From: a virus
DNA length: 30,911 nt
Virus record (IMG/VR): IMGVR_UViG_3300047494_000256
Location: 1 to 30,911 of that record
Reading direction: 5' to 3' (one strand)
Made by a program: the position numbers and the translations under genes. Below are positions 5,620 to 27,348 of the stretch, one piece after another. The notes beneath the pieces are model-generated. The model saw nothing but the letters and a program-made list of their open reading frames with translations, did no database searches and was not told where the DNA came from. Numbering within the stretch: the stretch's first letter is position 1; each line of letters opens with the position of its first letter.

Positions 5620-7992
5620 ATGAGCCGTAGCCGTCGAGCGCGCGCACATAAATCGGGCGCTCTGGCGACCCCGGCGAAGAAGAGCCTCGAGCTCGACATC
5701 GCGTCGAATACGATTCAGGGCTTCATCGGCGGCTCGTCGGTCGACCAGCAGATCTCGAAGAACCTCTCGCAGGCCGAGCTCTACTGGTACTTCGCGAATC
5801 ACCATCCGTGGATCGGATCCGCGACGGGACTGATCGCGCGCACGATCGCGGGCGCCGGCTACAACATCGTCGCGCCCGGCAGCGATCGCGATCAGGGTGA
5901 CGTCGACAAAGACCCGCGTGTCATCGCGCTGCGCGTGTTCCTCGATCAGCCGAATCCGGATCAGTCGATCGAAGATCTCGTCGAAGAGATCTCGCTCGAT
6001 CGCGACGTGCCCGGCAAGTTCTACGTGCACAAGCTGCGGCTGCCGAACGGTCAGCTCGTCGGGCTCGAACGCATCGACTCGCGCACGTGCGCGCCGCTGC
6101 TCAGCGCGGACGGCAAGTCGATCTCGAAGTTCGTCCAGAAGACGCGCGTCAACGGCAAGGTCGTCACGACGACGTACGATCCGAAAGACATCATCTTCGG
6201 CAAGCTCGCGGGCGGCGCGGATATCACCGGCCGCACCTCGCTGATCGATCAGATCGATCTCACGCTCGCCGTCGACTGGGGCGCGCGCAAGAGCGAAGCC
6301 GGGCGCTTTAAGAACGGCGTGCGCGCGGGCATGGTACTCGTCAACAAGACGGCGTCGAAAGACCAGCTCGAGCACAACCGCAAGACGATGGAAGAGTCGC
6401 GCAGCGGAGCTGACAATGCGCATCGTCCGATGGCTCTGGCCGGCGACTGGTCCGTCGAGTTCCCGCCGGCGCAAAACGAAGAGAACACGGGCCAGCAAGA
6501 TCGCGCGCGTCAGGAGATCTGCGCGATCTACCACGTGCCCGAGTCGAAGCTGATGACGACCGAAGGCACGCTGGGCGGCAACGGTAAGGAATCCGACGAC
6601 CAGACATTCCAGGAAGAGTGCGTGCTCCCGCGCGCGCGGTACATCTGGCGCACGCTGTCACGCGCGATCATGGCGGAGTTCGGGATCACCGATCTCGCGA
6701 TCGTGCCGAAGGCGAAGTACCAGCTGCGCATGTCGGCCGTCCCGGTCGCGGTGCAGCTGCTGCAGGCGGGCGGGTCGATCAACGAGGCGCGGGATCTCAT
6801 CGAGCTGCCGAAGAGCGCGGCGAAGGACGTCGACCTCGACACGCCTCTCGTTCAGGGGCTGCTGAAGTCGGCAGAGTCGGTGATCTCACCGCCGCCTCCC
6901 CCGGCGCCGATGTTCCCGCCGGGTGGCCCGAAACAGGGGACACCTGTCCCCGATCCGGGACAGCCGTCCACCGAGAAGCCGCCGGAGGGCACCCCCGCAA
7001 AAAAAGCGGGAGCCCGCGATGGCGGGCATACTGACGCCCTCAACGCGTATGTCGAGCAGCACCTCGACGACGTAGCCGCAGCGGCCAAGAAACTCGGCAA
7101 GGCGCTGCAGAGCGCGCACGCCGAGATCGCGGACCGGTTCTTCGCCACCGCGCAGCTGCCGGGACGCAAATCGGTCACCGTCGACGACGACGGCACGACG
7201 AGCGACGGCGACTCCGAAGACGCGCCTCTGCCGGAGACGGCAATCGCGCGTCTACGCAAGGCGATCGACGAGTTCGACGCCGGAGAGGTCGGCCAAGCCG
7301 TTTTCGACGCGCAGGAAGCGCTCTACGACCTCGGATTCGATAGGGCGCGCGTGCTGCTCGACGTCGAAGCCGGGCTCTTCGCTCCGCCGACCGCAACGAT
7401 CAAGCGACTGAAGGCCGACGCCGACGCGTTCGCGTTCCTCGTCCGCGATCGCGAGAAGGCTGCACTGCGGTCGATCCTGAGCGACGCGCTCGAGCAAGGT
7501 CTCGGTGCGGGTCCGACCGCGAAGCTGATCGAGTCTGCGTTCGACGTCGTGCACGTTGACGGCGAGCCCGAGGCGCACGCGCTCGATCACTACGTCGATC
7601 CGGACGGCGAGAAGTTCCGCCAGACGGCCAGCGGTCGCGTCTATGACGTGAACACCTGGTCGAAGATGGTGGCGCGCACCGAGATGTCCGTCGCGTCCAA
7701 CGCGGGCGCGAAAGACTTCTACGTCGCCGCCGGGCTGCAGAAGGTCCGCTGGATCGCAGCTGACGGTCCCGCGACATGCGACGAGTGCGCCGAAGCCGAC
7801 GAGCAAGTCGTCAGCCTGGGCGAGGACTTCCCCGGCGTCGACGTCGACACGCCGCCGGCTCATCCGAATTGCGTGTGCGCGATCGCGCCGGCAGACGACG
7901 ATCTCGACCTCGAGCAGTTCCGCGGAACCGCCGAGGATCGCGCCGCCGCTGCGCGCGGCAACCAGCCCGCGACGGGCGAGGACGATTCGTGA
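5620..7992 (+). CDS. Portal protein fused to MuF-like head morphogenesis domain
   Basis: A 790-residue fusion. Residues 1 to about 430 are a portal protein, the ring through which DNA enters; the segment AELYWYFANHHPWIGSATG (52-70) and the later stem and wing region are typical. Residues about 430-475 are a proline-rich linker. The C-terminus, from about 480, is helical and ends in a Mu gpF-like domain: an ARTEMSVASNAG helix, then CDEC (Cys720, Cys723) and HPNCVC (His748, Cys751, Cys753), a likely zinc knuckle. Portal and MuF are separate genes in most phages. GGAGG stands five bases before the ATG. The next gene overlaps by four bases. Confidence 0.9.
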   Translation: MSRSRRARAHKSGALATPAKKSLELDIASNTIQGFIGGSSVDQQISKNLSQAELYWYFANHHPWIGSATGLIARTIAGAGYNIVAPGSDRDQGDVDKDPRVIALRVFLDQPNPDQSIEDLVEEISLDRDVPGKFYVHKLRLPNGQLVGLERIDSRTCAPLLSADGKSISKFVQKTRVNGKVVTTTYDPKDIIFGKLAGGADITGRTSLIDQIDLTLAVDWGARKSEAGRFKNGVRAGMVLVNKTASKDQLEHNRKTMEESRSGADNAHRPMALAGDWSVEFPPAQNEENTGQQDRARQEICAIYHVPESKLMTTEGTLGGNGKESDDQTFQEECVLPRARYIWRTLSRAIMAEFGITDLAIVPKAKYQLRMSAVPVAVQLLQAGGSINEARDLIELPKSAAKDVDLDTPLVQGLLKSAESVISPPPPPAPMFPPGGPKQGTPVPDPGQPSTEKPPEGTPAKKAGARDGGHTDALNAYVEQHLDDVAAAAKKLGKALQSAHAEIADRFFATAQLPGRKSVTVDDDGTTSDGDSEDAPLPETAIARLRKAIDEFDAGEVGQAVFDAQEALYDLGFDRARVLLDVEAGLFAPPTATIKRLKADADAFAFLVRDREKAALRSILSDALEQGLGAGPTAKLIESAFDVVHVDGEPEAHALDHYVDPDGEKFRQTASGRVYDVNTWSKMVARTEMSVASNAGAKDFYVAAGLQKVRWIAADGPATCDECAEADEQVVSLGEDFPGVDVDTPPAHPNCVCAIAPADDDLDLEQFRGTAEDRAAAARGNQPATGEDDS

Positions 7993-17076: not shown

Positions 17077-20000
17077 GTGGCGGCCGAAGAGACCACGCAG
17101 CTCCACGTCGACATCACGGGCGACGGCGCGGCGCTTGTTTCCGCCCTCTCTCCGGTTTCGCAGATCCTCGCGCGTATGGAAGCAGATCTGCGCTCGATCT
17201 CCGGCACGGGCACCGCCATGGGCGAAGCTGTCGCTGCGGGTGCGGAAGAGGGTGCTGCGGGCGTCAAGACGCTCAGCACGGCGGCCAAAGAGGCCACAGT
17301 ATCCGAAACGGGTCTCGAGGTCGAAGGCGATCGTCTCGTCGCCGGACTGCTCGCGCTCGCTGACCATTCGCGGACGGCCGCGATGGGGTTCGAAACGCTC
17401 GGCTTGGACGCCGGCGCTGCTGCATCGCGCCTTGCCGGCTTCGGCGAGGTCATGGAGCGCGTCGCGTCTGCAGCACCGGAGCTGCTGGCGATCGGTGCGG
17501 CCTTCGCGGCAGCATCGGTCGCCTTTAATTTTATCAAAGACGGCGTGAAAGACGCCGAGGCGATGCAGTCGCAAATGGAATCGCTGCGCGCCGCGGTGCA
17601 AGCTCAGGGCGGATCGTGGGACGAGGCGAGCGAGGCGATCGAGCGATTCGTTCAGATTGAAACGCTCGCATCCGGATACACGGGCCTCGAACTCGTCACG
17701 AGCATGAACAAGTTGGTGACCGCGGGCAACAGCGTCTCCGATTCGATGCAGATCATGTCGGTCGCGACCGAAGTGGCGCGCTCAAAGCACATGGAACTGG
17801 GCGAAGCCGTTCAGCTCATCATCGACGCCGAGGCTGGTCGCGGCCGTGGGCTGGAAAAGGTCGATCTCAACCTCAAGACCGTCATCGACTCACACGGCAA
17901 GCTGTCCGACGTGCTCAAGATTCTGCATAAAGACACGCAGGGCGCGACCAGCGATGCCAATGACGCGACGCTGCAGCAGGCGCGTCTTCACGCCCAAATC
18001 GAGCAGACCAGCGAGGCGATCGGCAAAGACTTGCTGCCGTATATGGCTGGCTTCTCGGCGACGCTGGTCGGCGGTCTCGAGAATGCGATCGACTTCGGTA
18101 AGGGCATCGTCCAGAGCTTCGAGAGCGTCATCGATGCAGCAAAGGCTGCGGGGCTGGCCGTCAAGGCGCTGAGCGAGGTCTTTAAGTCGGACGGATCAGC
18201 TGATCGCGATTTCGCGGCCGCCGGTGCAGCGTACGCAAAATCTCGGGCAGAGAGCGATCGAGGCAATGGCCTCATGTTCGGTGGCACAGACGCGTATACG
18301 CGCGGTCACAAGGTGATCAACGATGCGCTCTATGCCGCAAATCAGAAAGCTGCGCATGCCGGGGACAAACTCGACAACGACCGCAACGTCGGTACGCCCA
18401 AAGAGACGAAAACGAAGGATCCGGGCGAGACGACCTCATCGTTCACGCCGATCGATCCAAAAGACACCGACAGCGTCGACATCTTTACCCAAGCGCAGAA
18501 AGACCTCGAAGAGCAGCTGAAGCGCACGACGGATGGCGAGTCGGCGCTCCAAGAGGCCGTCAAAACCGCGAGCACTGTTCAGGGCCAAGCTACTGCTCAG
18601 GCAGCGCTCGAAGCGAAGCAGCTGTCCGACCTGTATCAAAAACGGCAGCTGCTGACAGATGCCCTCGATGGCGATAAGGCGTCGCAGCAGACCTACAACG
18701 AATTGCTCAGCGCGGAACAGGATGCGCTCGAAAAGGCCCGTGTTGCGTATAACAATTATGGAGCGGCGCACAACGACGGCTCGAAGCGCACCCCGGAAGA
18801 AGACAATCAACTCGCGCAGCTCAAGCAGAACTATGACGATGCCGCGAAATCGGTAGCCGAACTTTCGAAGCGGCTTGAAACGCTGACGCAGGACATCGCA
18901 AAAAACTCCGATTCGCTGGCGCAGGTGAACAATTCCATCAGTGCGTTCGCGGACAAGAATGCTGAAGCGGTTGCCGCGTCCGAGCGGCAGTGGGACGCAT
19001 ATTCTTCGAAGCGAAAACAGCAGATCGCAGACGAAGCCGCTGTCCAAAACCTGACAGATGCGCAACGAGTCAGCTACTACGCAGCTTCGCTGTCACAGCT
19101 GACCGCCGACGACAATGCTTACATGGTGAAGTCCGTCGCGGCTGCCGCAGCCGTCGCCGCCGCCAAGATGAAGCTCGACGATCTGGTAAAGGCGCACGCG
19201 AGCTCGGGCGATATCGATCGCGCTGCTCAGGAGCTGACGGGCGCAATGGCGGCCGAGGGTCAGATTACCGTGCTGATCCAGAACAATGAAAAGCGGCGCG
19301 AGCAGATCCTAAACGAATATGATGCCGCCGTAAAAGCTCAGATCGCCGCGGAGCAAGAAGCTCGTAAAAAGATGCTCGACGAGGTCGAAGGCGTCGAGAC
19401 GAAATTTATCGGGGACGTACTAGAGAAGCACCAGAGCCTGCGCGCGGATCTGCAGGACGTCTGGAACGACATCCTCGGCGACTTCGTCAAGATGCTCGAG
19501 GAGATGATCGTCAAGTCGGCGCTGCTCCAAGGCGTCAACAAATCGATCGCGAGCTTGTTCGGCGTCAGCGGTGGATCCGGCGGAAGCAGCCCGATGGGAG
19601 CTTTCGGCGCGCTCTTCGGAAGTTCGTCCGGCAGCGCCATGCCCGCGCCATACAGCGCTGGATATGCGACCGGCGCTGCAGATGGCGCCGGCGACGGCTG
19701 GACCGATAGCGATACACCGACGAATGTCAACATCGCGAGCGCTGGCGGGACGAGCATCACAAATTCGAATCCGTTGGCCACGAATCTCACGCAGGTCGGC
19801 GGCAAACTCATGATGGGCGCCGCGATCGGCGGCACGATCGCAAGCGTCGATGGCGGAAACCAGACGAATGGGGCTTTGCTCGGTGCGCTCGGCGGATTAT
19901 TCGGTCCGATTGGGGCTGTCGCAGGCGGCGTGATCGGTAGCCTCATCGGGCCGAAGTACTCGGCCGCAACGAATCCGGACATGGAGGGCAACGTCGCCGG

Positions 20001-20622
20001 CTACCAGCTAGATCTCCACAACTGGCAAGGCAACACCGGTGCGGCGGCCCAGTATGATCCGGGCCAGGGCGGTACGGCCGAAGATCAGCAAATGGAAGCC
20101 TGGGCGGCTGCGAATAAGGGCAACACAACGCTCACGCCCGATCAGCAAGCGTTGCTGCAGCAGATCACGCAACTCGACGGCGGAAACTCCAGCGCGGATC
20201 TCACCGTCGAGAATCTGCACCAGGGGATGCTGACGCTTGCGAACGGTCAGGTCATCTCGGCCGCGCAGATGGAGCAACTGTCGGAGAGCTTTTCGCAATA
20301 CGGCGCGGGAGATCCGAACAGCGCAGTGCCGGCGTTCACGCTGACGCGCAGCTATCCGGACTTCAACCTCGCATCGGTCGCTGCGCAAACCGCGGCCGCA
20401 ACGGGAGCGTCGACCACCGGGTCGGCGAGCGGCGGCGGCAGTATCAACCGTGCCGGTCTTGGATTTACCGGTGACATCAACGTCGACCTGAGCGGCTCGA
20501 CGATCGTCGGCGCCGAGGGCCTCGAGAGCGTCGGCGTCCAGATCAGCCAAGTCTTGCAGCGCGTTCAGAACGGCGAAGTAGCTGGCTCGAACATCGGGCT
20601 GCGTTCGATCTACTCCCCGTAG
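17077..20622 (+). CDS. Tape measure protein
   Basis: A 1181-residue protein following the chaperone, the normal place for the tape measure that sets tail length. It is helical and coiled-coil-rich over most of its length (about residues 470-810), with hydrophobic stretches near residues 135-155 (LLAIGAAFAAASVAFNFI) and about 930-955 (GALGGLFGPIGAVAGGVIGSL), typical of this class. By the rough rule of about 0.15 nm per residue, a tail near 180 nm is implied. The last third is Gly/Ser/Thr-rich and differs in composition. GTG at 17077 has GGAG six bases upstream. Confidence 0.88.
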   Translation: MAAEETTQLHVDITGDGAALVSALSPVSQILARMEADLRSISGTGTAMGEAVAAGAEEGAAGVKTLSTAAKEATVSETGLEVEGDRLVAGLLALADHSRTAAMGFETLGLDAGAAASRLAGFGEVMERVASAAPELLAIGAAFAAASVAFNFIKDGVKDAEAMQSQMESLRAAVQAQGGSWDEASEAIERFVQIETLASGYTGLELVTSMNKLVTAGNSVSDSMQIMSVATEVARSKHMELGEAVQLIIDAEAGRGRGLEKVDLNLKTVIDSHGKLSDVLKILHKDTQGATSDANDATLQQARLHAQIEQTSEAIGKDLLPYMAGFSATLVGGLENAIDFGKGIVQSFESVIDAAKAAGLAVKALSEVFKSDGSADRDFAAAGAAYAKSRAESDRGNGLMFGGTDAYTRGHKVINDALYAANQKAAHAGDKLDNDRNVGTPKETKTKDPGETTSSFTPIDPKDTDSVDIFTQAQKDLEEQLKRTTDGESALQEAVKTASTVQGQATAQAALEAKQLSDLYQKRQLLTDALDGDKASQQTYNELLSAEQDALEKARVAYNNYGAAHNDGSKRTPEEDNQLAQLKQNYDDAAKSVAELSKRLETLTQDIAKNSDSLAQVNNSISAFADKNAEAVAASERQWDAYSSKRKQQIADEAAVQNLTDAQRVSYYAASLSQLTADDNAYMVKSVAAAAAVAAAKMKLDDLVKAHASSGDIDRAAQELTGAMAAEGQITVLIQNNEKRREQILNEYDAAVKAQIAAEQEARKKMLDEVEGVETKFIGDVLEKHQSLRADLQDVWNDILGDFVKMLEEMIVKSALLQGVNKSIASLFGVSGGSGGSSPMGAFGALFGSSSGSAMPAPYSAGYATGAADGAGDGWTDSDTPTNVNIASAGGTSITNSNPLATNLTQVGGKLMMGAAIGGTIASVDGGNQTNGALLGALGGLFGPIGAVAGGVIGSLIGPKYSAATNPDMEGNVAGYQLDLHNWQGNTGAAAQYDPGQGGTAEDQQMEAWAAANKGNTTLTPDQQALLQQITQLDGGNSSADLTVENLHQGMLTLANGQVISAAQMEQLSESFSQYGAGDPNSAVPAFTLTRSYPDFNLASVAAQTAAATGASTTGSASGGGSINRAGLGFTGDINVDLSGSTIVGAEGLESVGVQISQVLQRVQNGEVAGSNIGLRSIYSP

Positions 20623-20663
20623 ATCCAACCGCTGCGCAAGCGGCGGCATTGAGGGCGTCTTTC

Positions 20664-23600
20664 GTGACGACCGATACCTGCATCACCGTCTACGACGCGA
20701 AAATGGCAAACGTACTGTGCGCCGATGCGTCGGCGGACGTTGCGGGCAGCGGCGACGTCCTGCAGTACGAAGACACGCCCAACGGCAGCGGCGCGGGCAA
20801 GATCGTGCTCGGTTTGCGCCGCGAAGATTTCCTAGCGCGCGGCTACTGGTCGTCGATGAACTTCGTCGAGATCTCGACGAGCGTTGACACGCTGCAGCAA
20901 GCGGTGACGACGAATCTGGCGCCGCTCACGGATACGCTGCCGTCTGCGTCGTGGACCGGGTCGGGCTATTCGCTTGGCAGCTCCGGTCCGGGCGGCGCCG
21001 CATCGTTGAACTTCGCGGGGACGAGCGCGGCGAATTCGAGCGCACAGCTTTACTCGAATATTTCGACCGGGCTGGTCAGCGTCGTGCCTGGCAACTATTA
21101 CGTCTTCAGCGCGTACGTGAATGCCGCCGTCGTCTCGTCGGGCAGTCCGCTGATTTCGATTTACAATTCGACCGGCGGCACTCGGTTTGTGGTGACGACA
21201 TGTCCGCTCGTCAATGGACGTGTCGCGACGCCTGTCTGGCTCTGCCCCGCCGGCACGACGCAAGTGGCGCTTTCGTTCGCCAATAATTCGACGGTCGTAC
21301 CAACGGGTTCGACGCTTTCTTTCTCGCAGCCGATGTTCGAGCAGGTCAGCGGGGCGACGTCGACGGCTTCCGCGTGGTACGTCCCGTCCTTCACGTCGGC
21401 CCAGCAACTTGCGGGTCTCGCATGCCGTCTGTACGTCACGTCGACGAAGCCGTGGGACGGTTCGCAAGAGCCGGAAGCGCAACAGGCATTTCTCGACAAC
21501 AGCATCACGAAGACGATCCGGATTCCGGTCACGACCTATGGGACCGACGCCGCTTCAGGCGTCCCGTATATCACGACTGCGCTGCCACTTGGCGGCGGCA
21601 CAATCTCTGCATACGGCGCGGGCACGGTCGTCGGCCGACGTCGCTATTGCGGATACATTCTGCGCCGCTCGAGCACGAACTCGAAATCGCCGCAGGTCAC
21701 GCTGTCGCTGATCGGCGCAAGCAATCGCATTACGGGCGTCGGTACGTTTACTGTCGCGAACACCGACGTCGGCACGGCGATCTACAATGCGCTCTACCAA
21801 TTTTCGTCCGTCGGCCGCTGGCCGTTCATCGTCGGCGTCCTGCAGTCGAACTTCCCGACCGTCGGTGCGCCGTACACCGCGACTTCCAACCGCTACCCCG
21901 TAACCGAGTTCATCTCGGACGCGCTGCAGGCGATCAGCAGTGGGGACCTGTGGGCATTCCGCGTTGGCCACGACCGCATTCCGCGGCTCGTGCAGCTCTA
22001 CACGTCGGCGACGAACACGTACACGTACAACGTCACGCTGCCGCAGGGTCAAATCGCGTTCGATCCGCTTGCGGTGACGATCGCAGACGATGCGTCGAAC
22101 GTCTACAACAGCGTTGAGGTCATCGGCAACACGGACTCGACGACGAATATCTCCGTCGACGCGATCGTGCAAGATGCAAATTCCATCGCGCTGTACGGGC
22201 AGATCGACTATCCACCGCAGACGAACACAAAGCTGACGACGCAGGCAGCATGCGTCGCGCAAGCGACGTCGCTGCTCAACGAGAGCTCGATCGCGACGCA
22301 GAACAACGGGTTCACGGTCTACACGCGCAATGACGGCAGCGCGCCGAACGCGCCGCTTGGCGTCGCGAACGGCGACGTCGTCAGCGGCGTCACGAACGTC
22401 ACGATCTCGCGCAACGATGCGACGGGATCCGTGCGCAATCTCGTCGCGGATTCCGAGCTGCTCTACGCGACCGGAACGCATGCGCTCTGGTCGAGCGCGA
22501 CGGCAGGCATGACGATCGCCGCGGGCGCCGGGCCAACGTCGGGCAACGCTTGGAAGAGTCCCGTGGGCACGGGCGCGGCGATCGGCGGATCCGGATACTC
22601 CGGGCTGTCGCCGGTGCAAGACGTCGTTCCGGGTCAGACCGTCGTGCTGTCGGGCTGGGCGAATGCTGCCGCATCGAGCGGTCTTGCGAAATGGCAGATC
22701 CTCGCTTGGCCATCACTAACGCCCGTCGCCGGCGGCGCAGCGAGCATCGCCGCCGGGACGACCGGCCGCGCAACCGGCACGGCAGTCGCTATCCCTACGG
22801 GCGTCACGCAAGTTGTCGTCAGTTTCAGCCTTGGCGCGGGCGCCGTCATTACCGCCGGCCAGTACGTGTACTGGGCGCAGCCGCAGCTCGAATTCGGCTC
22901 GTTCGTAAGCCCATACGTCGCGAACAACGCGGCGCCGGCAACCTACGGCCTGATCCAGAGCGCGAACACGTGCATCACCGCCGACGGCGACAGCCGACAG
23001 GTCGTGAAGTACTCCGCGATCGAGCCGGACTGGAACGCGACGATGGCGGAGATCGCCAATTCCGCGACCACGGCGCTGATGGTGAATGCGGCAAATACGT
23101 CGCAGGTCGGCGCGTATTGCGTGTCCGCGAACGCCGGTCCGCCGCCGATCTCGACGTCATCGCTCGTCGTCACGTTGCCGACCTATCTCGCGCTCTTTGC
23201 CAAGGGCACTGCGGTCGTCAGCATCCCGTCGAGCAGCGTTACGCTCACCGCGTCGCAGACGAATTGGGTCTGGCTGAATCCGTCCGGATCGTACACGGTG
23301 CTGCAGAGCACGGCGAAAGTCGCGGGCGCGATCCCCTACGGCTACTTCATGTGCTCGGCGACAGGTGTGCTCGGGTTCACGCAAACGGCATTGGTCGGCG
23401 TCGGGCTTTCCGCAGCGCCGAGCGGCGGCACGTTCACCTGCTCCGCGTTCAGCGTCACCGGCTGGACCGGCACGACGAGCTCCGGACAGAGCAGCTCGGC
23501 GCCGAACGCGTCGATCGCGTTCACGGTCGCCTACACGCCGCCGACCGGTGATCCGCGTCCGTTCTCGCAGTGGGGATCGGGCGGCATCTACTGGGCCAAA

Positions 23601-25814
23601 GCCAACAACTCGGGCTCGAGCGACGGCGACGTCAATCCGCTCGACTACGTGCAAGTCGGCGCGTTCAACGGCAGCACAATCCCGGCTACCGATTCGATCG
23701 GGCCGCTCGCCGCCGGTGCCGCATACCAGATCGCGCTGCAGCTGAAAGACCAGTTCGGCGACGGCGGTCCGTTTGTGATCCTCGGCCTGACGCCTGTGCA
23801 GCTGCAAGGCGCATCAACGATCGCCGGCGCCAACAACACGAACCTCGTTCCGGACTCGGACTGGAACGCGAATCTTGCGTACTGGCCGCATGCGAATGTC
23901 GGCGCGGCCGGCGTCGCGATCGTCAATCCGAATGCCACGTACGGCACCCGCTACATCAACCTCAACGGTGGCGGCAGCGGCCAGAACGCGGCGGTGTATT
24001 CGCGCCCGATCGCGGTGTCGACCGGTGTGACGATCACAGCGACCGTGCAATATCGCTGCTCGACGTATGCGGGAAGCACGTTCTTCGGTCTCGTTTCGAC
24101 GACCGACGAAGGCGTGCCGAACGCGACGCCCGCGACGGTCTACACGTCGTTTACGATTCCGAGCGGCGGCAGCGCGACCACGTGGGTCACGAAATCGATC
24201 ACCTACACGCCGACCTTCACCGGCACGCTGTCGTTCTGCATCTGGGCGACGAATCTCAGCACCGGGCTGATGGCATTCCAGCAGCCGCAGGTCGAACTCG
24301 GTTCATCGTTCACCCGATACATGCCGGGGCCGTCGGTCGATCCGTCGACTGGTGCATACGTTTACGCGGCGCTGCCGACGCAAGTTCAAGGGCTCATCAA
24401 CGCTGCGGGTCAGCTGATCGTCAGCCAGTTCACCGGCGGCGTGCAGAACGGCGATGGATCGCTGTCATTCTCCACAGGTGTGGGCACGTCGGTGCAAACC
24501 TTCGCGCTGGCCACCGGAACACTCGTAGCAATCAAAGGCGTGATGGCCGGTGGATCTGCCGGCGGCGCGGCGTCGATCTTAATCGGCAACACAACCAACG
24601 GCTACGGCATCGCGTTCAACGCGGGCGGCAGCGGCAGCGCCTACACATTCAAGTATGCAAGCGGCGTTGGAACAGTTTTCACGACGGTGGCGAAAACGTA
24701 CGATACGAACTACCACTCGTATCAGCTGTCGGTGCTCTTCCAGGGAACTCAGGTCTCGATCGAAGGCATGATCGATGGCACGCTGATCGCTCAGTACGTC
24801 GACACGAGCCCGGCTGCGGTCGCGAATCCGTCAGCCGTTCAGATCAACACGAACGGCACGACCGGCAAGCTCAACGGCATCACGATCTATCTCGGCCAGT
24901 CGACGTACCTGACGCTGCCGAATCAGATCACGAGCGTAATCGACCCGAACGGCAACGTGCCGTCGAGCGCGCCGTTCAAGGTCAACGGGACCTTCATGCC
25001 CGTTGTCGCGAGCGGATCGCTCACGTATACGGCATCGTCCGGCTCAACATCGGGAACCTCGCAGATCATCATCTATTGGGACGGAACGCACGCGTCCGTT
25101 GTGCCGGCGTTGCATTTCCCGTCTCAAGCTATCGGGGTCAACACGCCGGTCACTGCCGGGAATTATCCGACAGTTTCAACCCTGCTCCCGTCGACATCGT
25201 ATTATTTCGCAGCTCGTGTTGACACCGCGGCTTACGGGCTGCACATTCAATCGGTTGCTGGCGGCGCAACGCCTACGGCTGCAGATCATCAGTGGCTCAA
25301 TTCCGACGGATACGTCGCGTTTGCTCCAGATCTTCAATGCTCGACCCCGGCGGCGAGCACCGGATCCGGGAGCGGCTCGTCGCCTGGCGGCGGGGGCGGC
25401 GGACCGCAATGCCCCGCTTCGCATCAGCTGATGCCGACGACGCGCGGGCTCATCCGCGCCGATAAAATTGTGCCCGGAGATTTCGCGCTCTGGCCCGATG
25501 GCAAGACGCGTGAATTCGTCGGCTCAGAAAAGCTCGAAGGCTACCTGATGCGCGTGCGCGTTGCGTACAACGCCGACTGCACGATCTTCGAAGACTTCGA
25601 TGTCGAGGAGACGCACCAGTGGCAGGCCGCCGACGGAAGCTGGATCCGCACGAATAAAATGGCGTGCAAGCAGCTTTTGCTCGGCACTGACGGCGAGTAC
25701 TACCCGGTCGTCGGCGTCTGCTGGCTTGGCGATGGGTTCTACCAGAAGCTGCGCGTCGTAGGCCAGGAAATGCCGATGGGCCGCGTGGTCGGCCACAACA
25801 TCATCACGCAGTGA
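20664..25814 (+). CDS. Giant multidomain tail-tip protein with C-terminal Hint domain
   Basis: A 1716-residue protein directly after the tape measure, the largest gene here. The first 80 residues and about 250-590 resemble a baseplate hub (DDASNVYNSVEVIGN, ISDALQAISSGDLWAFRVG). Three CBM-like beta-sandwich modules lie at about 84-240, 591-755 and 1059-1223; the last two begin NLVADS/NLVPDS and all end near a Pro-x-hydrophobic-Glu motif. A LamG-like domain spans about 1245-1415. After a Gly-rich linker, Cys1583 to the end forms a Hint domain: CPASHQLMPTTRGLIRADKI, His1651 in ETHQW, and C-terminal His1711-Asn1712. GTG at 20664 (GAGGG eight bases upstream) is preferred to TTG at 20649. Confidence 0.83.
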   Translation: MTTDTCITVYDAKMANVLCADASADVAGSGDVLQYEDTPNGSGAGKIVLGLRREDFLARGYWSSMNFVEISTSVDTLQQAVTTNLAPLTDTLPSASWTGSGYSLGSSGPGGAASLNFAGTSAANSSAQLYSNISTGLVSVVPGNYYVFSAYVNAAVVSSGSPLISIYNSTGGTRFVVTTCPLVNGRVATPVWLCPAGTTQVALSFANNSTVVPTGSTLSFSQPMFEQVSGATSTASAWYVPSFTSAQQLAGLACRLYVTSTKPWDGSQEPEAQQAFLDNSITKTIRIPVTTYGTDAASGVPYITTALPLGGGTISAYGAGTVVGRRRYCGYILRRSSTNSKSPQVTLSLIGASNRITGVGTFTVANTDVGTAIYNALYQFSSVGRWPFIVGVLQSNFPTVGAPYTATSNRYPVTEFISDALQAISSGDLWAFRVGHDRIPRLVQLYTSATNTYTYNVTLPQGQIAFDPLAVTIADDASNVYNSVEVIGNTDSTTNISVDAIVQDANSIALYGQIDYPPQTNTKLTTQAACVAQATSLLNESSIATQNNGFTVYTRNDGSAPNAPLGVANGDVVSGVTNVTISRNDATGSVRNLVADSELLYATGTHALWSSATAGMTIAAGAGPTSGNAWKSPVGTGAAIGGSGYSGLSPVQDVVPGQTVVLSGWANAAASSGLAKWQILAWPSLTPVAGGAASIAAGTTGRATGTAVAIPTGVTQVVVSFSLGAGAVITAGQYVYWAQPQLEFGSFVSPYVANNAAPATYGLIQSANTCITADGDSRQVVKYSAIEPDWNATMAEIANSATTALMVNAANTSQVGAYCVSANAGPPPISTSSLVVTLPTYLALFAKGTAVVSIPSSSVTLTASQTNWVWLNPSGSYTVLQSTAKVAGAIPYGYFMCSATGVLGFTQTALVGVGLSAAPSGGTFTCSAFSVTGWTGTTSSGQSSSAPNASIAFTVAYTPPTGDPRPFSQWGSGGIYWAKANNSGSSDGDVNPLDYVQVGAFNGSTIPATDSIGPLAAGAAYQIALQLKDQFGDGGPFVILGLTPVQLQGASTIAGANNTNLVPDSDWNANLAYWPHANVGAAGVAIVNPNATYGTRYINLNGGGSGQNAAVYSRPIAVSTGVTITATVQYRCSTYAGSTFFGLVSTTDEGVPNATPATVYTSFTIPSGGSATTWVTKSITYTPTFTGTLSFCIWATNLSTGLMAFQQPQVELGSSFTRYMPGPSVDPSTGAYVYAALPTQVQGLINAAGQLIVSQFTGGVQNGDGSLSFSTGVGTSVQTFALATGTLVAIKGVMAGGSAGGAASILIGNTTNGYGIAFNAGGSGSAYTFKYASGVGTVFTTVAKTYDTNYHSYQLSVLFQGTQVSIEGMIDGTLIAQYVDTSPAAVANPSAVQINTNGTTGKLNGITIYLGQSTYLTLPNQITSVIDPNGNVPSSAPFKVNGTFMPVVASGSLTYTASSGSTSGTSQIIIYWDGTHASVVPALHFPSQAIGVNTPVTAGNYPTVSTLLPSTSYYFAARVDTAAYGLHIQSVAGGATPTAADHQWLNSDGYVAFAPDLQCSTPAASTGSGSGSSPGGGGGGPQCPASHQLMPTTRGLIRADKIVPGDFALWPDGKTREFVGSEKLEGYLMRVRVAYNADCTIFEDFDVEETHQWQAADGSWIRTNKMACKQLLLGTDGEYYPVVGVCWLGDGFYQKLRVVGQEMPMGRVVGHNIITQ

Positions 25815-25820
25815 GGACGC

Positions 25821-26207
25821 ATGTTTAAGCACTACGCGATCGTCCCGGCGCCCACCGGCGTCGCAATGGATCCGATGCACCCGTTCACGGTGTTTGCGTC
25901 ATTTGTTCCCTATCGCGCTCAATCGTGGCACACGCATCCGCTGGGCACAACCGGGGACTCTCTCGTCACCATCACGCTGCGATCGCGTAGCGCAAAAAAT
26001 CATCTTGTCGAACTCGACACGGCCGGGACGATCAAACTGCTTCCGGATCTGGTGTTCGGCGTCACGCTGGATGAAAAAGACCCGACGATCGCGCAGCATC
26101 CGTCATTGATTGCTGCGGGAGTCGTCGGGTCCGATTCAACCTACAAAGCGGCGGTTAAGCTGCACAAGTTTTATGGCTGGCAGCCGATGCACCCCGAACA
26201 AGACTAG
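25821..26207 (+). CDS. Unrecognised protein after tail tip
   Basis: A 128-residue protein starting seven bases after the tail-tip stop, with GAGG just before its ATG. It has a beta-rich first half (FTVFASFVPYRAQSW, DSLVTITLRSRS, HLVELD) and a helical end. Being adjacent to the Hint-bearing protein and before the reversed lipoprotein, it could be a tail-tip accessory or chaperone. No family is recognised. It ends one base short of the opposing gene's stop, so the two genes converge. Confidence 0.62.
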   Translation: MFKHYAIVPAPTGVAMDPMHPFTVFASFVPYRAQSWHTHPLGTTGDSLVTITLRSRSAKNHLVELDTAGTIKLLPDLVFGVTLDEKDPTIAQHPSLIAAGVVGSDSTYKAAVKLHKFYGWQPMHPEQD

Positions 26208-26208
26208 T

Positions 26209-27189
26209 TCAGAATTTACCGTCGATCGACGAGCCAGATTGCTCCCATGCGAATTCCATCGTCGACGGGCTGGCAGCGCTGTCGTCGCCGTAGCCCTGCA
26301 GATACTCGAATTTAACGTAGGTGCCGCTCGCCGTTTTAAGGATCGTGTATTCAGTCGCATTCGATCCGTCAATGGTCGTTTCGATTGGTTCAGCTGTGAA
26401 CGCGGAGGACCACGATGATGTCGGAATGTCGATGAAGGCAAGACCGTCATAATTCGAGAGATGCGCCGCACCGTAAGGAGCGTGCAACGTCGTTCCCGCT
26501 TCAGCGAGATTTTGGAAGGCGCCCGTGCAATACGGTCCGTCAACGTACAGGTCTGCACCGGTCGGCGAGGAGAGTGAAGTCTCGACTCCGCCGCTAAATG
26601 CGAGCGCACTCTGCAGCTGAGTGTACGTTCCGGTGTTGCAGCCGAACGCGATGCTCGGATACACGTAAACCGGGCTCGTTTGCGTCACCGTTTGCCCGCC
26701 GATGGTCGCGCTGCCGCTGACGCTGTCTGCTCCGCTCGCCTTCGTCGACGCGAGCACCAGCGAGCCCGTCGCCGTCGGCGCAGGCGTATCGGTCGTCGCA
26801 AGCGTCGTGGTTCCCGATTCGGTCCATGTCGGCGATGCGCTGGCCGCGGGAGACACCGTCAGCGTGACGGTCGCCGAATCGCTCGAGGATCCGGGCACTT
26901 CCGAAAACGGCTCATGATTCGAGCAGCCATCGCCGAGATTGCACGGCGCGGCCGCCATCATCACCGGCAATGGTGTCGCTGTGTCGCGGGTTCCGCGGCG
27001 ATTCGAGGCAAGCGTCCCGACGGGGTGCATTGCACCTGTCCACGCGATGCTGGCCGTGTATTGCGTTGCGATCGGCGTCGACGTCGGCGCGACGGTCGAT
27101 GGCGCCGCGGGCGTGGACCCGCCGCCTCCGCCGCAAGCCGCGAGTAGTGCTGCAGCGGCGATCGACGCCGCGATATAGATCCGCTTCAC
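26209..27189 (-). CDS. Lipoprotein moron (lysogenic conversion candidate)
   Basis: A 326-residue protein on the opposite strand to the late genes. The signal is clear: basic VKR start, hydrophobic core, lipobox LAAC with the lipidated Cys at residue 19, then GGGGGS and a Pro/Ser/Thr-rich linker. The remainder is Ser/Thr/Gly-rich and beta-type, with two cysteine pairs (CNLGDGC and GCN...YC). GTG at 27189 is used because it begins the signal peptide; GGGAG stands upstream. Reading upstream to 27321 adds a non-signal tail and is rejected. Reverse orientation and isolated position imply its own promoter and expression in the lysogen. Function unknown. Confidence 0.8.
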   Translation of the reverse strand: MKRIYIAASIAAAALLAACGGGGGSTPAAPSTVAPTSTPIATQYTASIAWTGAMHPVGTLASNRRGTRDTATPLPVMMAAAPCNLGDGCSNHEPFSEVPGSSSDSATVTLTVSPAASASPTWTESGTTTLATTDTPAPTATGSLVLASTKASGADSVSGSATIGGQTVTQTSPVYVYPSIAFGCNTGTYTQLQSALAFSGGVETSLSSPTGADLYVDGPYCTGAFQNLAEAGTTLHAPYGAAHLSNYDGLAFIDIPTSSWSSAFTAEPIETTIDGSNATEYTILKTASGTYVKFEYLQGYGDDSAASPSTMEFAWEQSGSSIDGKF

Positions 27190-27348
27190 CCGTAAGATCT
27201 CCCGGCGCTGCGCGCCACTCGAGTAAGCAGCCGCGAGCAGCTGCACTTCACACCGTAGCACACGCCGCGAATCTGTGCCCGAACCATTACGCCGCCATTC
27301 TTTCGCGGCCCTTACGCGCACGAGCGCGTCTTACGCTGGAGGGCCGCG
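27190..27348. promoter_or_regulatory. Divergent intergenic region (lipoprotein / lysis cassette)
   Basis: The 159 bases between the reversed lipoprotein and the lysis cassette must hold the lipoprotein promoter and may hold one for the lysis genes. On the minus strand a weak TTCGGG and TGCTACGGT pair can be seen near 27250-27285, but the spacing (20) is poor. CTTACGC occurs twice, 22 bases apart, at about 27310-27338. No repressor-type palindrome was found. GGAGGG (27338-27343) serves the GTG at 27349. Confidence 0.35.

Follow-up and report, generated by a model that had tools for sequence, protein, structure and literature searches.

Hint domains are known as inteins that are spliced out of proteins, as processors of hedgehog proteins and as proteases that release toxins. 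Close to the case considered here stand the A-type BIL domains, reportedly described by Amitai, Dassa and Pietrokovski. BIL domains have no +1 nucleophile and give rise mainly to cleaved products (PMC7664689; PMC7765530), and BIL2 transfers its thioester to a lysine with the formation of an isopeptide bond (PMC8616854).

The present analysis concerns the tail-tip protein encoded by a virus for which the whole IMG/VR virus record of 30,911 nt (hereafter the window) was examined. The last 134 aa of this protein constitute an intein-like (Hint) domain in which the catalytic residues are in place, and the sequence, predicted fold, occurrence in other phage tails and probable role of this domain are compared below with those of the described systems.

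Methods

Two relatives of the window, G001 and G002, were found via the portal protein, and both carry the tail-tip protein. Residue numbers of the tail-tip protein of the window refer to a TTG start at 20649, the true start being uncertain. Further members were sought in IMG/VR by two scans at the DNA level with the pattern [DN]-G-x-x-S-H-N-x4-stop and by an alignment scan with patterns placed off the protein end. Multiple sequence alignment with MAFFT misplaced the N-terminal block when two or three sequences were supplied and was correct with 20 sequences.

Results

Genomic context of the tail-tip gene

The gene order upstream comprises an integrase, a portal-MuF gene, an SU10-type major capsid gene, a tail tube gene and a tape-measure-like gene (17077-20622), the last of which directly precedes the tail-tip gene (20649-25814, + strand). 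The 1721-aa product is a central tail fibre-like protein, as assigned from the list of open reading frames, its position in the tail module and homology; its N-terminal part of about 770 aa shares about 40% identity with its counterparts in G001 and G002. The protein of G001 is interrupted by the contig end and that of G002 is complete, with 1917 aa.

Some other features of the window were observed. The portal and a Mu-F-like head protein share a single 790-aa frame (5620-7992); G001 and G002 have them in different frames, probably as separate genes. Between the head and the tail genes, the segment 12110-13111 gives weak PHROG matches to tail fibre and esterase/lipase families. Between the tail and lysis genes, the opposite strand carries a gene for a lipoprotein-like product (LAACGGGGGS; 26209-27321, - strand), possibly a lysogenic-conversion gene; a counterpart like it in kind and place occurs in G002 (L007:14158-15231, - strand), with no similarity detectable by blastp.

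Sequence of the C-terminal domain

The C-terminus of the tail-tip protein reads ...STGSGSGSSPGGGGGGPQ-CPASHQLMPTTRG...VEETHQWQ...GHNIITQ-stop and is arranged as a Gly-rich linker, Cys1588, a domain of about 130 aa, His1716-Asn1717, the tetrapeptide IITQ and the stop codon. The Gly/Ser-rich linker STGSGSGSSPGGGGGGPQ (25356-25409, + strand) resembles the Gly-rich linkers that precede the Hint domain in other C-terminal members. It is followed by the Hint domain proper, 130 residues from Cys1588 to Asn1717 (25410-25799, + strand), which begins C1588PASHQLMPTTRGLIRADKIVPGDF and continues with the segments VEETH1656QWQAADGSWIRTNKM...YQKLRVVGQEMPMGRVVGH1716N1717-IITQ-stop. Cys1588 (25410-25412, + strand) occupies position 1 in block A and is the predicted nucleophile of an N-S acyl shift, His1656 (25614-25616, + strand) is the block B histidine, and His1716-Asn1717 (25794-25799, + strand) form block G, the predicted site of Asn cyclisation; all of these are invariant in 20 of 20 aligned domains. 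The terminal IITQ (25800-25811, + strand) places Ile, which is no nucleophile, at +1, and the domain contains no endonuclease. Departures from the usual blocks were also observed: in block B a Glu replaces the usual Thr/Ser three residues ahead of His1656, and in block F the His-x-Tyr motif is absent and a Lys stands at the Asp position (KLRV), as is frequent in the relatives.

The original prediction had placed a Hint domain at the end of the tail-tip protein and was right as to its sequence and place, and its assignments of blocks A, B and G are consistent with the 20-sequence alignment. Six glycines and the Cys are indeed present; however, two residues (PQ) intervene between them. The residue numbers Cys1583 and Asn1712 imply a start five codons downstream and are replaced here by 1588 and 1717. 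Four residues follow the Asn, as had been said in one place, and not five, as implied by the phrase 'five residues after His-Asn'. The roles proposed there for the domain (cleavage on its own N-terminal side, covalent anchoring or ligation of the tip) are treated here as possible ones.

Detection, profile statistics and predicted fold

Searched alone, the window domain had no match in Pfam, NCBIfam or the solved structures, no Hint or intein family model detecting the sequence, and tblastn found nothing at an E-value of 0.1 in 50,697 phage records, in IMG/VR or in the GTDB genomes. The missing match to curated models is likely due to divergence of the sequence and not to its fold. The domain alone is thus an orphan, and its identification had to rest on relatives. 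A match at an E-value of 0.09 to Crystall_3 was under the cut-off and disregarded. With the domain alone as query, residues 1680-1709 (nt 25686-25775) matched PHROG family phrog_13839 ('DNA polymerase') at an E-value of 4.5e-4, which possibly reflects an intein C-terminal piece within that family.

The global profile score of the window domain against its relatives lies at z = 4.8 over shuffled sequences, falling to z = 2.1 when Cys1 and HNIITQ are held fixed, and none of 108 other 134-aa pieces of the window proteins attains it. The identity to the relatives is 13-20%. The window copy is the most divergent member, and a family HMM built without G002 gives no match to it.

The decisive evidence is provided by the predicted fold and by the orthologous domain in G002. 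AlphaFold2, given the window domain with 19 viral relatives as the alignment, returned five models alike with pLDDT 93.7 and pTM 0.85. As the alignment was fitted to Hint relatives, this result depends in part on the homology claim, although a two-sequence alignment gave no fold (pLDDT 36). A Foldseek search of the PDB yielded 51 matches at E<=0.001, and all 50 matches listed are inteins, BIL domains or hedgehog proteins, headed by the gp41-1 intein (rmsd 2.0, TM 0.81/0.85). Among viral models the matches were Hint and intein proteins of phages. The original prediction would, by its own account, have been contradicted by the prediction of some other fold; the two programs together gave a confident Hint fold.

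The orthologous domain in G002

The complete tail-tip protein of G002 ends GGGGGTIGGC...DASHLFV...NHRYLFDKTSSHNVKAQ-stop. The C-termini of the window and G002 proteins match at an E-value of 3e-4 and are aligned across the part from block B to block G. The family HMM made without G002 ranks the Hint domain of this protein first, at an E-value of 2e-5 and end to end. Searched against all phage records at an E-value of 0.1, the G002 domain had as its sole match the terminase intein of Mycobacterium phages (Phlyer etc.; 14 records, E-value 0.02), and this match starts at precisely the residue annotated as the first of the intein, which corresponds to the G002 Cys equivalent to Cys1588.

Recurrence in phage tails

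The two DNA-level scans gave ten matches, six of which fall in short chance frames; the four in long frames all belong to tail-like proteins with a Gly-rich linker, Cys and Hint domain. Loci L015-L017 and L029 were found by the pattern requiring His-Asn, four residues and a stop, so that these features are not independent evidence in their case. The alignment scan gave 22 loci, of which 17 remained once one cut contig and the four query relatives had been set aside. Nine of the 17 end 4-10 residues past His-Asn, with a Gly-rich linker in each of the nine; the other eight are internal Hint domains that are followed by about 190-400 residues and, wherever the upstream part is readable, lack a Gly-rich linker. 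This internal group (L033, L035, L039-L041, L045, L049, L050) has the signature CPxPxM...SHNK[TS]P in proteins of unassigned function, and in L045, L049 and L050 the proteins begin almost at the Hint domain and have no position-1 Cys.

The order Gly-rich linker, Cys, Hint, His-Asn, 4 to 10 residues and stop is found at the protein end in a total of about 15 phage tail lineages. All eight of the C-terminal carriers scanned match PHROG tail families, including phrog_5616 (tail fibre protein), phrog_1101 (tail protein) and phrog_31 (central tail fibre J), and the L016 protein matches a PHROG tail family together with Pfam Phage-tail_3. The ending is nearly absent from the phage-record collection, where two records carry it (MT835519 and phage NCTB), and this rarity may be the reason why it is unstudied.

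Only five columns are invariant in the alignment of the 20 domains, namely Cys1, Ala17, the block B His and the terminal His-Asn, and the window domain has all five. Pfam Intein_splicing is matched by 14 of the 20 domains and PT-HINT (PF07591) by six, NCBIfam intein_Cterm by 15 and intein_Nterm by seven. Among solved structures, the 20-sequence profile matches Tetrahymena BIL2 best (E-value 8e-12), along with many inteins and the BIL domain of Clostridium thermocellum, 2lwy (E-value 5.6e-9). The +1 residue of the relatives is I, V, L, A, K or Y and never Cys/Ser/Thr; together with the Ile of the window and the C-terminal tails of 4-10 residues, this bears out the earlier statement that the domain cannot splice in the normal way. 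Lys occupies +2 in 11 of the 15 C-terminal lineages and, in the internal group, +1; the post-Hint tail is conserved as HN[IVLY]K in most C-terminal lineages.

In two groups with close pairs, dN/dS values of 0.11-0.22 and 0.09 for the Hint domain indicate purifying selection. The homologue of the L036 tail protein in Pseudomonas phage KT1 ends where the L036 linker begins and has neither linker nor Hint domain, which supports the view of the Hint domain as a removable add-on.

The downstream small gene

Directly after the tail-tip gene lies a small gene of 128 aa (25821-26207, + strand), with homology to the post-Hint gene of G002 (Smith-Waterman score 58, reached by 0 of 500 shuffles); tblastn gave no match to it in the phage collection. 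The post-Hint small genes of G002 (L007:13601-13945) and L029 (L029:6940-7260) are similar to each other as well (score 56, 0 of 500 shuffles), the L029 tail protein being otherwise unrelated. The C-terminal motif shared by the small genes of the window, G002 and L029 is D-[ST]-x-[YF]-x-A-x(8)-G-x(3)-[FM]-[HD]-P-E. The small gene may encode a partner or assembly factor of the Hint tail protein, as judged from three cases, which are few. Read-through or frameshifting into a longer C-extein was considered and rejected: the downstream gene of the window is in frame after the TGA, but in G002 and L029 the small-gene start overlaps the tail-gene stop (TAATG and TGATG, respectively) in another frame, so that this is not a feature of the family.

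Discussion

With a probability of about 0.6, the domain is an A-type BIL-like module that would cleave itself off at Cys1588 and be trimmed after Asn1717. We infer cleavage, its order and its purpose in Hint tail tips from the predicted fold, the conserved catalytic residues, the recurrence, the purifying selection in the relatives and the absence from one homologue. The C-terminal A-type BIL-like Hint domain would be carried on the flexible Gly-rich linker; after folding, Cys1588, with the block B His1656, would attack the preceding peptide bond to give a thioester by an N-S acyl shift, and resolution of the thioester by water or an amine would release the 134-aa domain and leave a virion protein ending in a Gly-rich tail. 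His1716-Asn1717 would independently remove IITQ. Since no Cys/Ser/Thr follows Asn1717, transesterification would have no acceptor, which excludes normal splicing, and the thioester would not be passed to a C-extein. The Hint domain would then serve as a C-terminal cap that removes itself; it might assist folding or assembly and depart once the tip is finished. The recurrence of a linker-plus-Hint ending in about fifteen lineages suggests trimming or chemical tagging of the tail tip after synthesis. As the window copy is the most divergent, loss of activity is possible there, and it could be slow or inactive.

The same thioester could also serve ligation, if an amine attacked it and the Gly-rich tip end became covalently attached to the bearer of that amine, which could be an adjacent tail protein (through a Lys), the product of the downstream gene or a host envelope molecule. 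This is a serious alternative, though an unlikely one. In its favour, Tetrahymena BIL2 is the solved structure that matches best in sequence, Gly-rich ends are suited to amine ligation, a Lys is frequent at +2 of the C-terminal lineages and stands at +1 of the internal group, and a conserved small gene lies directly downstream in the window, G002 and L029. Against it, IITQ of the window has no Lys, there is no known partner, BIL domains that lack a nucleophile at +1 undergo hydrolysis by default, and a ranking of BIL2 above inteins is no functional test. The narrower proposal, that the Hint thioester bonds the Gly-rich tip end to a neighbouring tail protein or a host envelope component in covalent tip assembly or adsorption, is quite unlikely; if it is true, virions would be assembled or attached with the help of protein ligation that needs no ATP. 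It also seems improbable that the domain of the window phage is a folded but unreactive or unprocessed C-terminal module retained as a structural cap. The divergence of this copy and its loss of the block B Thr and the block F aromatic residue are in keeping with such a role; however, Cys1, the block B His and His-Asn are all retained despite 13-20% identity to the relatives, which are themselves under purifying selection.

Descent from a splicing intein, left as a stub after the host gene lost its C-terminal part, would explain the intein-type fold and blocks as well as the resemblance of the G002 Hint domain to a terminase intein. It is nevertheless very unlikely, given the identical ending (linker, tail of 4-10 residues, non-nucleophilic +1) across about 15 tail lineages, the missing endonuclease, the conservation of HN[IVLY]K in most tails and the Hint-less homologue that stops at the start of the linker. 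That Cys, His and His-Asn occur by chance in a domain of another kind might be suspected from the lack of a direct database match for the window sequence alone, but this is refuted, as far as prediction allows, by the predicted fold with the structure search and by the orthologous Hint domain of G002, and has a negligible probability.

The presence of a recurrent, selected Hint domain at the outermost end of tail fibres and tips points to post-translational self-processing of the organelle that contacts the host. Self-removal by a Hint domain would be a further route, beside those already described, by which phage tail fibres lose C-terminal maturation domains, and tail-tip Hint domains could be a source of new small cleaving or ligating domains.

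Comparison with known systems

The hedgehog Hog domain shares the fold (1at0) and the C-terminal location, and by autoprocessing it severs the part on its N-terminal side, as is proposed here; unlike it, the window protein ends after the Hint domain without a sterol-recognition region, and Hog uses no terminal Asn. The PT-HINT domains of polymorphic toxins, matched by six of the 20 members, are similarly borne at the end of long, fibrous proteins, but they precede a toxin domain, whereas the window protein stops four residues after the Asn. With class 1 mini-inteins (gp41-1, DnaB, DnaX) and the Phlyer terminase intein the domain has in common the fold, the Cys1 register and the size of the splicing domain; it differs from them in having Ile in place of a +1 Cys/Ser/Thr, no C-extein and a location outside a conserved enzyme site. 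A class 3 intein (WCT motif) was ruled out, as Cys1 is present and the block F position is Lys (KLRV), with no block F Cys.

BIL2 of the Tetrahymena BUBL1 locus (6y75, 6tmm) is the best profile match and among the best fold matches. It sits after a ubiquitin-like domain, where the thioester is formed; it is internal, has ubiquitin-like flanks and conjugates to lysine, whereas the window Hint domain has neither a downstream domain nor a known substrate. The 'large intein domain protein' of phage NCTB (SBV38301.1) and the MT835519 tail protein have a Gly-rich linker and a C-terminal Hint domain with HN and 7-8 residues, but are annotated only as an intein domain or not at all; no functional study of these two was found in the open-access literature, and an earlier mention of tail-end Hint domains is possible. 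The A-type BIL domains share the Hint fold, Cys1, the block B His, the C-terminal His-Asn and the lack of both a +1 nucleophile and an endonuclease, and the Clostridium thermocellum BIL domain superposes on the window fold with a TM of 0.77. The described BIL domains occur in variable bacterial proteins with a C-terminal flank; in contrast, the Hint domain here stands at the end of a phage tail tip, behind a Gly-rich linker and with 4-10 residues after it.
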